A stretch of DNA of 42,931 nucleotides. Origin: a virus. The notes below the pieces were generated by a model, which did no database searches, had not been told where the DNA came from, and worked only from the letters and a program-made list of their open reading frames with translations. The stretch covers positions 1-42,931 of IMG/VR virus record IMGVR_UViG_3300049732_000431; one strand, written 5' to 3'. Position numbers and translations under genes: made by a program. Shown here piece by piece: positions 34,405-37,240 of the stretch (its first letter is position 1; each line of letters starts with the position of its first letter).

Positions 34405-34512
34405 ATGCCTGACTGGTGGCTCGACCCGGTGCAGGTGGGGCTCAGCGTCGTCCTGGTGGGGACGCTGGTGTTCCTGGCCGTGCTGCTCCTGGTGGGGAAG
34501 CGGCGGTCATGA
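34405..34512 (+). CDS. Single-helix membrane peptide interrupted downstream by HEARO
   Basis: 35 residues from ATG 34405. A membrane helix covers about residues 11-30 (VGLSVVLVGTLVFLAVLLLV), then GKRRS. The stop TGA is part of ATGA (34509-34512), the left border of the HEARO element. Before insertion this TGA probably overlapped the start of the next gene, as at many other junctions here. Small membrane peptides of this type have no known function. Confidence 0.65.
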   Translation: MPDWWLDPVQVGLSVVLVGTLVFLAVLLLVGKRRS

Positions 34513-34904
34513 ACCTCTCCCTGAAGGAAGAGGCTTGTCCCTGGCGCCACGGGCGTACCAGCAAGGTGCCCCCTGCTGGGGGTTCGCGCCCGCGTCCGAG
34601 ACCTTGAGATGCCGAAGCATCCCGTTTGGCTGCATGACGACAGCCCCGACGGCGGCCGGAGCCGCCGTCTCGTGGGAGACAGCACCATGGTGCTGACTGC
34701 AAATGCTTTACCCGGGAGCAGTTTCCCTCCCGGAACCGGCAGCATTCGGTTCTTACGGCCGCGAACCGGGGCTCCCCGGCGGGGAGTGCCTTGGGCCACC
34801 AGGAGCGTACCGGGTGGGGGTTGTGGGCCAGTTGTGGGGGAGTGGAGCGGGGGTGTCCCGGTTCCTCCCCGCCCTGAAGGACGGGGCTTCCCCGGGAGGG
34901 TCTG
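34513..34904 (+). ncRNA. HEARO (IscB omega RNA) without IscB
   Basis: A ~390-base non-coding element. It has border hairpins with the same CCCTGAAGGA loop (34514-34533 and 34867-34886), GGCTG/CAGCC (34628-34645), a 9-base stem GACGGCGGC/GCCGCCGTC (34648-34669), CAGCACCATGGTGCTG (34680-34695), CCGGGAG/CTCCCGG (34712-34733), and the strings GGGAGACAGCACC, TTCTTACGGCCGCG and TACCGGGTGGGGGTTGTGGG. I recognise these as HEARO/omega RNA. It lies exactly between ATGA and GTGA, the preferred HEARO site as I recall. IscB should follow, but a pol beta-like gene does. Its last bases (GGGAGGG) serve as that gene's ribosome site. Identification is from memory, without a covariance-model search. Confidence 0.8.
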
Positions 34905-35630
34905 GTGACGACGAAGACCCGGATCCCCCGCCAGCACGCCCTCGAGGTGGCCCACGAGGCGATCGCGCTGCTGGCCCCGGCCTGCGAGCGGATCGAGATC
35001 GCCGGCTCACTCAGGAGGGGACGGCCCGACGTCGGCGACGTGGAGCTGGTGGCGGTGCCCAAGACGCACGCAGAGCCGGCCGATCTGTTCGGCGAGCGCA
35101 CCAGGGAGGTCGACGAGCTCCACGACCTGGCCGCTCAGCTGCTCGCCGCCGGCACGCTGGCCCACCGGCCCGACGCACGGAGCCGGATCGCCTTCGGGGG
35201 CCGGTTCAAGCGGCTCACCTTCCGAGGCGTCGCCCTCGACCTGTTCGCCGTCAGAGAACCGGCCGTCTCGTGGGGCGTGATCTTCCTGCTGCGCACCGGG
35301 CCAGCGGCCTTCAGCAAACGCCTGGTCACTCCCAGGTACTACGCCGGCGCGCTGCCCCTGGGGTACCGGGTCAAGGACGGGGCGCTGTGGAACGGGGGCG
35401 AGCTCGTGCCCACTCCGGAGGAGGCCGACTACTTCGCGGCCCTGCAGGCGCCCTACCTGCGCCCGGAGCAGCGCACGGACACGGTGCGGCTGTCCCTGAT
35501 CGCCAGGGGGCGCGATGGACAGGGGCGCGTGGCGGGGGAGCCGGGGAGGCCGGCCGAGTGGGCCTGGTACGACGGCGACGCGAAGGGGGGCTGGTGGGCG
35601 GTGGAGCCCCACAAGGAGGACGGCGGATGA
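34905..35630 (+). CDS. Pol beta-type (family X) nucleotidyltransferase
   Basis: 241 residues from GTG 34905; GTGA is the right border of HEARO and GGGAGGG (34894-34900) lies in the RNA. The N-terminal ~65 residues contain the palm motif GSLRRGRPDVGDVEL (GS and D-E in place of D-D). A third acidic position follows in VALDLFAV, then the fingers/active-site helix WGVIFLLRTGPAAFSKRLVT. The end has GYRVKDGALW and PTPEEADYFAALQAPYLRPE, matching the pol beta C-terminus. The 8-kDa lyase domain is missing, so it is a minimal polymerase or nucleotidyltransferase. Confidence 0.85.
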   Translation: MTTKTRIPRQHALEVAHEAIALLAPACERIEIAGSLRRGRPDVGDVELVAVPKTHAEPADLFGERTREVDELHDLAAQLLAAGTLAHRPDARSRIAFGGRFKRLTFRGVALDLFAVREPAVSWGVIFLLRTGPAAFSKRLVTPRYYAGALPLGYRVKDGALWNGGELVPTPEEADYFAALQAPYLRPEQRTDTVRLSLIARGRDGQGRVAGEPGRPAEWAWYDGDAKGGWWAVEPHKEDGG

Positions 35631-37240
35631 CCGCACGACCAGGCCGCACGCCCCGGACGACCGCCGTCGACGACGTCCTCCGGGCCCCCCGCACCAGGAC
35701 CGGCGCCGGCGCCGGGCGGGTGATCGGGCAGCGGGTGGGGGGCGGCAGCCCGGACGACGACCGGATCCAGCAGCTCCCGCTGGACGACGTCGCGCCCTCG
35801 CCGGACAACCCCCGCCGGGCGTTCGACGAGGCGGCCCTGGCCGAACTCGCCGAGTCGATCAAGGCGCACGGCGTCCTGGAGCCCGTCCTGGTGCGGCCCT
35901 GGCCGGCGCTGGGAGCGGCCGGCGCCCGCCGGCGAGGCCTCGCCGGGCACGTCCTGATCGCCGGGGAGCGGCGCTGGCGGGCGGCGGGCCTGGCCGGGCT
36001 CAAGCACGTCCCCGCCATCGTCAAGCACGGGCTCACGGACGAGGCCGCCCTGCGCCTGGCGCTCATCGAGAACCTCCAGCGAGTCGACCTGGATCCCATC
36101 GAGGAGGCCGAAGGCTACCGCCGCCTCCAGCAGCTCGGGATGCGCCAGCGGGAGATCGCGGCGGCGGTGCACGTCAGCCAGTCGACTGTGGCGCACCGGA
36201 TGGCCCTGGTCGACCTGCCTGATGCCGTACGGCATAAAGTCGCCTCTGGCGCGCTGTCCGCCAGCCACGGCGAGGCGCTGGCCTCGCTGAAGGGATTCCC
36301 GGCGCTGCAGGAGCACCTCGGCCGGCTGGTCGTCGAGGGCGGGTCCACCTCGGCGCAGCTCGAGAAGGGGGCGCAGCAGGGGGGGCTGCTCGGCCAGTAC
36401 GCGGTGCAGGACGAGCTCCAGAAGGCCGGCGTCGTCCGCGTGCTGAGCCACCACGAGGCGTTCGACGTGAAGACCACCTGCGCCGCGCCGGGGGCCTGCC
36501 CGTTCGGCGCCTACCGGGCCACGGCCTACGGCACCGGGCTCTGCCTCAAGCCCGAGCACTACCGCGAGCTCGCGGCCGCGGCGGAGCGCGCGCAGGCCGA
36601 GGAGGCGAAGGCGGTGGTGGCCGAGGCGACGGCGGCCGGTGCGCCCGTCCCGCGTCTCGACGACCTGCCCTACGACAGCGTCCAGCGGCTCTACCACGGC
36701 GTGGCGATCCCGGAGGGGTGCAGCGAGGCGTGCCCCTGCCGGGCGACGGGACTCACCGCCCGGGGCGAGGCGGTGCCGGTCTGCACCGACCCCGACCGCT
36801 TCCAGCGCCTCGAGCGCGCCCAGAAGCGGGCGCGGAAGCTCGTGCGCATCCAGGACGCCCAGGACGCCATGGACGCCCTCGAGGCCCGCCTGGAGGGCCT
36901 CCCCGAGGTGGCGGGCCGGGAGCTGGCCCTGTTCGTGGCCGAGGCGGTCTATCGGGCCACGGCAGGCCGCAGCGAGGGGGCGAGGGAGGCGCTAGAGGCC
37001 GCGGCCGTGCGCTGGTGTCCGGCGGACGCGGCGGCCATCACCGCGGCCCGGCTGTGGGAGTACGACGGGTACGAGCGGGCGGACGCCCTGGCCGCGGTCG
37101 AGCCCCTCCGGCTGGTGCGGTTCGCGCTGTGGGCCGTCCTCTCGCAGGAGCTCCGGCAGCGAATCGCGTACGACCACGGGCGGCCAGGGCGCGCAGAGTG
37201 GTACCTGGGGCGCGGACAGCAGCCGGAGGCCTCGACGTGA
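35627..37240 (+). CDS. ParB-like nuclease/DNA-binding protein
   Basis: 537 residues from ATG 35627, with an ATGA overlap. A disordered basic start precedes the ParB N-domain (~60-150): LPLDDVAPSPDNPRRAFDEA, IKAHGVLEPVLVRP and LIAGERRWRAAGLAGLKHVP, then IENLQRVDLDPIEEAEGYRR. An HTH with RQREIAAAVHVSQSTVAHRM follows. The C-terminal half has clustered Cys (CAAPGACPFGAY, CSEACPCRATG) and a helical end. The length suggests a ParB-like protein with extra zinc-type domains, common in early phage operons; partition or replication roles are possible. Confidence 0.8.
   Translation: MTARPGRTPRTTAVDDVLRAPRTRTGAGAGRVIGQRVGGGSPDDDRIQQLPLDDVAPSPDNPRRAFDEAALAELAESIKAHGVLEPVLVRPWPALGAAGARRRGLAGHVLIAGERRWRAAGLAGLKHVPAIVKHGLTDEAALRLALIENLQRVDLDPIEEAEGYRRLQQLGMRQREIAAAVHVSQSTVAHRMALVDLPDAVRHKVASGALSASHGEALASLKGFPALQEHLGRLVVEGGSTSAQLEKGAQQGGLLGQYAVQDELQKAGVVRVLSHHEAFDVKTTCAAPGACPFGAYRATAYGTGLCLKPEHYRELAAAAERAQAEEAKAVVAEATAAGAPVPRLDDLPYDSVQRLYHGVAIPEGCSEACPCRATGLTARGEAVPVCTDPDRFQRLERAQKRARKLVRIQDAQDAMDALEARLEGLPEVAGRELALFVAEAVYRATAGRSEGAREALEAAAVRWCPADAAAITAARLWEYDGYERADALAAVEPLRLVRFALWAVLSQELRQRIAYDHGRPGRAEWYLGRGQQPEAST

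Follow-up and report, generated by a model that had tools for sequence, protein, structure and literature searches.

A probable gene-less IS200/IS605 element carrying a candidate TnpB-type omegaRNA scaffold between two phage genes

The window analyzed here is an entire viral record of 42,931 nucleotides (IMG/VR record IMGVR_UViG_3300049732_000431). Between a short open reading frame and a gene for a PolX-type protein lies a non-coding, hairpin-rich element of about 0.4 kb, whose features are listed in Table 1. This arrangement had been recognized in the original prediction, which correctly described the next gene as pol beta-type (PolX-type by PF14791 and PF14792) and correctly reported that the record encodes no IscB: the profiles for IscB (PF14239), TnpB (PF07282) and the Y1 transposase (PF01797) have no match anywhere in the record, and a domain search within the element gave no TnpB, IscB or TnpA. 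The same prediction identified the element as an orphan HEARO, the omega RNA of IscB, starting at 34513. The element itself is real, but we place its boundary at 34506 and its conserved RNA on the minus strand.

Table 1. Features of the element and its flanks (positions in the window)
Feature	Position	Strand	Basis
Upstream 35-aa ORF; its final codon and stop, TCA TGA, are supplied by the element	34405-34512	+	sequence reading
Predicted 16-nt guide CGCCGCUUCCCCACCA, outside the element, at the 3' end of the 34405-34512 phage gene	34490-34505	-	TnpB guide rule
Whole element, gene-less and PATE-like (IS200/IS605), 399 bp	34506-34904	-	both ends match tnpB element ends; no coding content
Candidate TnpB-type omegaRNA (reRNA) scaffold, 141 nt	34506-34646	-	R1 match; strand-specific fold; G045-like fold
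3' pseudoknot strand CAUGAC, the RE terminus	34506-34511	-	pairs with 34633-34638
Stem 4, the RE subterminal hairpin GCCUCUUCCUUCAGGGAGAGGU	34512-34535	-	end-hairpin repeat; R1 match
Stem 2 (GUCUCGG ... CC.GGGAC) around enlarged stem 3	34537-34602	-	folds
Extra UUCG-capped hairpin GGGAUGC/GCAUCUC	34606-34623	-	folds; not present in G045 relatives
Stem 1 hairpin GGCUG(U)/(G)CAGCC	34628-34645	-	motif GGGCnGnnGTCANnCnGCC conserved in 53 tnpB 3' ends; covariation
Pseudoknot strand GUCAUG in the stem-1 loop	34633-34638	-	partner of CAUGAC 34506-34511
Middle of element, with several strong hairpins; immediately precedes stem 1 on the minus strand	34648-34865		homologue search; fold
LE subterminal hairpin CCCCGUCCUUCAGGGCGGGG, then AGGAA as in tnpB LEs	34867-34886	-	similarity to tnpB LEs
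Shine-Dalgarno-like GGGAGGG within the element end, its GGAGG 5 nt upstream of the PolX GTG	34894-34900	+	sequence reading
Insertion target/TAM, GTGA (+) or TCAC (-); includes the PolX start codon GTG	34905-34908		spacing rule in tnpB relatives
PolX-type gene (DNA polymerase beta palm/thumb), starting exactly at the insertion target	34905-35630	+	PF14791 E=8e-6; PF14792 E=5e-4

The two ends of the element carry hairpins in a direct-repeat-like arrangement (34514-34536 and 34867-34889, 83% identical), and the end-hairpin pattern occurs at these two places only in the window, against an average of 0.27 matches in shuffled sequence. In the orientation of a tnpB gene, position 34904 is the left end (LE) and 34506 the right end (RE). 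The left end of the element as it stands in the window, GTCATGAACC..., reads in tnpB sense as ...GGTTCATGAC up to the boundary, which is the RE terminus found in tnpB elements such as L217, L225, L206 and L324; the match to tnpB ends at the RE closes with ...TTCATGAC, and that at the LE reads TCAC, the boundary, 18 nt and then the hairpin. The LE region shares 89% identity over 47 nt, target site included, with that of an Acidiphilium tnpB element, and 85% over 47 nt with the phage tnpB locus L225. The right-hand hairpin matches the ends of plasmid and phage IS200/IS605 elements, those with tnpB and those with iscB alike. Both families also share a spacing, in which the hairpin is followed after about 16-19 nt by the target tetranucleotide (RTGA in the plus sense of the window, TCAC/T in tnpB sense); IscB right ends likewise abut RTGA. 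In 12 of 14 tnpB relatives the LE hairpin is preceded by TCAC/T at a distance of 8-24 nt, compared with 9% expected by chance, and the 18 nt of the window fall within this range. Because the left-end sequence is that of a tnpB RE terminus and the right end shows the hairpin/GTGA spacing, we set the bounds at 34506 and 34904. The target tetranucleotide is present at the LE, and no duplicated flank was seen. Rfam also gives weak matches to HgcC, sot0042 and CRISPR-DR9 on the LE hairpin (34861-34891, minus strand). We rejected all three as identities, since the scores lie below gathering and the IS605 end accounts for them; it may be that the HgcC and sot0042 families consist in part of IS605-end RNAs.

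The target coincides with the junction of the two flanking genes, both of which stay readable because the element supplies the TCATGA stop to the upstream frame and GGGAGGG before the GTG of PolX. An empty site would end the upstream frame in CGG CGG TGA, and its junction would read ...GGGAAGCGGCG/GTGACGACG... (the slash marking the joint), with stop and start overlapping in GTGA; shorter and alternative renderings of the predicted empty allele are ...AAGCGGCG/GTGACG... and ...GGGGAAGCGGCG/GTGACGACG.... Among sister phages sought through the PolX and ParB genes there was no usable empty-site relative, and searches for a second copy of the element gave none; the insertion and its mobility are for this reason deduced from the ends. 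Exact-motif scans of viral and genome contigs returned 31 chance matches to a 16-mer and afterwards zero. Two BLAST matches (L205 and L207) were likewise taken as chance, their sequences reading as a hairpin of terminator type and as aroC-like coding DNA. The ParB-N/HTH_ParB protein encoded at 35627-37240 has relatives of 33-44% identity in six viral contigs (L335-L340), and none of the six shares the PolX neighborhood.

In 301 genomes searched from a single phylum we found a tnpB locus, L206, whose 3' end is collinear with the left end of the element on the minus strand (59 nt, then 22 nt at 95%). Further tnpB loci were gathered from plasmids, phages and viral contigs. Their 3' ends carry a conserved motif, GGGCnGnnGTCAnnCnGCC, of which the GTCAnn pairs with the RE terminus. 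The pairing takes many forms in the window and its relatives, among them GTCATG/CATGAC, GTCAAC/GTTGAC, GTAAAC/GTTTAC, GTAATC/GATTAC and GTAACC/GGTTAC. Pseudoknot and stem pairs covary across 53 sequences (A4) with a score far above shuffles and slid controls; these sequences were picked partly for a findable pseudoknot and hairpins, which inflates the percentage of pairing, and it is the variety among the pairs that is informative. Of the 53, two (L206 and L324) come from a genome, G045, that was found through its similarity to the window.

A covariance model, R1, was built from these 53 tnpB 3' ends with the window excluded. It matches the minus strand at 34506-34663 with 51 bits (E=5.9e-16, filters off); across the 42.9 kb the LE hairpin of the element itself scores 16.9 bits, and the next match otherwise scores 10 bits. 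The 51 bits lie inside the range of tnpB loci (25-91 bits) and above every antisense match to IscB loci (at most 42 bits). In a tree of end modules the window groups with the two G045 elements, L206 and L324, with a support of 0.997. G045 also carries truncated tnpB copies. As a side observation, this one bacterial genome, from the phylum searched, holds 13 TnpB-type omegaRNA copies (L341, L343-L354), one of which (L354) stands behind an apparent group II intron reverse-transcriptase fragment rather than tnpB.

The plan of the minus strand runs, 5' to 3', from stem 1 with a pseudoknot strand in its loop through an added UUCG hairpin, stem 2, an enlarged stem 3 and stem 4 to the RE terminus, and it matches the folds obtained independently for most G045 tnpB copies. 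In the relatives stem 3 holds an equal position with a different sequence (CUCCGGG/CCCGGAG, UACGGCC/GGCCGUA). The 141-nt segment folds on the minus strand at -72.9 kcal/mol (z=-3.99), better than every one of 200 shuffles, compared with z=-1.27 and 20 of 200 shuffles for the plus strand; over the whole element the plus-strand fold is unremarkable (z=-0.94). Unlike the omegaRNAs of intact elements, this one overlaps no tnpB 3' end; what is left is a legible C-terminal tail of TnpB (GAVVMQPN..KVSDAG..GARDKPLPSGRGS, then stop), and no TnpB domain. We call the omegaRNA an orphan because this tail, and no tnpB gene, accompanies it. On the letters of the sequence, then, the candidate RNA is a TnpB-type omegaRNA scaffold on the minus strand.

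The middle of the element (218 nt) gave no homologues in repeated searches and folds with z=-2.0 on the minus strand; its hairpins may insulate the 5' end of the RNA. A perfect 9-bp hairpin, GACGGCGGC/GCCGCCGTC, lies within it directly upstream of stem 1. A scan for promoters and terminators was empty, and no sigma-70-like promoter was found on the minus strand.

Both palindromic ends are present and a transposase gene is absent, as in the palindrome-associated transposable elements (PATEs) of IS200/IS605. Very probably the locus is a gene-less IS200/IS605 element of this class, derived from a tnpB-bearing one and inserted beside a GTGA target where the stop codon of one phage gene overlaps the start of the next, and it has kept both ends and a complete minimal TnpB omegaRNA scaffold on its minus strand. 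The original prediction of a stand-alone, non-autonomous omega RNA thus holds as to a nuclease-less element of the omegaRNA type, of IS200/IS605 kind; the type is that of TnpB and not of IscB. The element is a new example of a kind already known. The 271-nt PATE of Halanaerobium hydrogeniformans consists of the LE hairpin, the last 58 nt of tnpB and the whole RE (PMC7290912); ours shares the LE hairpin, the lack of tnpA, the last tnpB nucleotides and the entire RE, and differs in being in a phage, in its length of 399 bp, in some 220 nt of structured sequence that is not tnpB and in its enlarged omegaRNA stem 3. A comparable viral PATE of 489 bp lies between two viral ORFs in the Halorubrum tailed virus HRTV-DL1 and gives strong, almost exclusively antisense RNA from one end during infection (PMC10544981). 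The position between two viral ORFs is common to both, whereas HRTV-DL1 is an archaeal virus whose PATE is shared with its host and has demonstrated expression, and the present element, known from sequence alone, was found as a single copy in a GC-rich temperate phage. The omegaRNA of ISDra2 TnpB comprises stem 1, pseudoknot, stem 2, stem 3a/3b, stem 4 and a guide at the 3' end, the region 5' of stem 1 being disordered in the structure (PMC10097598). The scaffold resembles it in stem 1 with a pseudoknot to the RE terminus, in stems 2 and 3, in a stem 4 with a UUNA loop and in a predicted 3' guide, but it lies outside any tnpB gene, has the extra hairpin between stems 1 and 2, and has a TCAC-like TAM rather than TTGAT.

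In IS200/IS605 TnpB systems the guide starts at the first base beyond the RE (PMC10711439). If the minus strand is transcribed, the first bases past the RE (CGCCGCUUCCCCACCA...) would therefore serve as guide. The guide had been predicted to come from the 34405-34512 gene; that side is right, but it would form a 3' extension of the minus-strand RNA, from 34505 downwards, and not a 5' one. The window holds no further protospacer for it. Use or mobilization in trans, as originally proposed, is the most plausible reading, with TnpA and TnpB of the host as putative partners. A Y1 TnpA acting in trans, from the host or from co-resident elements, would excise and insert the element as single-stranded DNA. 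The insertion would be tolerated through the stop codon and Shine-Dalgarno sequence that the element ends provide. On the genomes of sister phages, a host TnpB loaded with the RNA would cleave TCAC plus guide, the sequence of the empty site, and recombination would then restore the element there. Phages are known to use TnpB-derived RNA-guided proteins, TldR (PMC13418256). Taken furthest, this becomes a phage-borne, guide-only selfish element through which, in a lysogen, the host TnpB with the omegaRNA of the element attacks sister phages that co-infect the cell and have no insertion, cutting at TCAC plus CGCCGCTTCCCCACCA. We think this unlikely; if it were true, a guide-only element of 399 bp would act as superinfection exclusion or as a homing device. 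What had been an orphan-HEARO call becomes a testable one: the phage would carry a TnpB-type guide-RNA element free of genes, for which strand, guide, TAM and predicted empty site are defined.

A serious alternative is that the element is a decayed deletion remnant, in which the ends and the 3' tail of tnpB survive the loss of the gene and the RNA has no current function. On the identity of the element this account and ours coincide; they part only over its present function. The still readable TnpB tail fits it, as do the truncated tnpB copies in G045 and the fact that copies, a promoter and relatives of the whole mini-element were not found. All omegaRNA stems are nevertheless intact, stem 3 is enlarged yet paired, a UUCG hairpin has been added and the fold of the RNA strand beats all 200 shuffles. 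These features argue only moderately against a silent remnant. The scaffold may be no more than a recent leftover that is not under selection, and we regard a silent remnant as possible rather than probable.

The TnpA of IS200/IS605 elements uses end hairpins together with a flanking tetranucleotide. The element has both, so that its hairpins might matter as single-stranded DNA for TnpA, the RNA-like stems being incidental. Stems 1-3, however, extend as far as 140 nt inward from the end, and the RNA pseudoknot is kept and covaries across tnpB elements, which makes a role at the DNA level only quite improbable.

There remains the original identification of a plus-strand omegaRNA of the HEARO/IscB type. 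Orphan IscB omegaRNAs are on record (cited in PMC9581776), and the element does have the transposon end (antisense) and RTGA flank of HEARO (RF02033). Its 5' end, GUCAUGAACCUCUCCCUGAAGGAAGAGGCUUG, looks like a HEARO start and is 88% identical over 35 nt to the left ends of Halomonas/Vreelandella IscB elements, and IscB elements have the same RE/RTGA flank. A HEARO-like GUCA...CCUGAAGG...GGCUUG is present in the window, but is not diagnostic, as tnpB right ends show the same antisense. The Infernal search with the Rfam HEARO model that had been proposed as a check gave no significant match, a result the prediction itself had named as telling against it: cmscan was silent at the gathering score, over the 700-nt locus when the cutoff was relaxed to E<=10, and with RF02033 directly, while of six plasmid IscB loci the same scan recovered HEARO in five. 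No iscB lies directly downstream of the element. We also built a model from 25 IscB omegaRNAs, R2, to separate the IscB from the TnpB class. On ten held-out IscB loci that gave a full-length or partial match it scores 68-244 bits on the plus strand in eight cases, with partial matches of at most 21 bits in the other two (L098 and L160), and on tnpB loci read antisense it scores 25-30 bits. The plus strand of the window scores 25.8 bits, confined to the end hairpin, and the IscB-type core downstream of the 5' hairpin is absent. Because this score is at the level of tnpB loci read antisense and comes from the end hairpin alone, we conclude that the window behaves as a tnpB end. With Rfam HEARO silent beside a positive control, R2 seeing the end hairpin alone, a plus-strand fold close to random and tnpB elements as nearest relatives, a plus-strand HEARO is highly improbable; the preferred TnpB-type element lacks the HEARO core and has the opposite strand and a 3' rather than a 5' guide. 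An IsrB-type omegaRNA, suggested by the size and the NTGA TAM (PMC9581776), was set aside when tnpB homologues were found.

TnpB and IscB omegaRNAs are easily confused, as one and the same transposon end forms the 3' terminus of the TnpB RNA on one strand and the 5' terminus of the IscB RNA on the opposite strand. R1 scores 21-42 bits on IscB loci read antisense, and because these matches fall at IscB left ends we conclude that the two omegaRNA classes share one transposon end on opposite strands. It seems that a single ancestral end is used in this way by the TnpB and IscB nuclease families. At the level of individual loci, the 5' end of the IscB omegaRNA read antisense matches the TnpB 3'-end model at most loci tested (L033-L161), and conversely. 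One further locus, in Acidithiobacillus caldus (L036, 795-2228), encodes an RRXRR+HNH protein 24% identical to a reference IscB; the region upstream of it has no Rfam HEARO match and is likely a divergent class of IscB omegaRNA.
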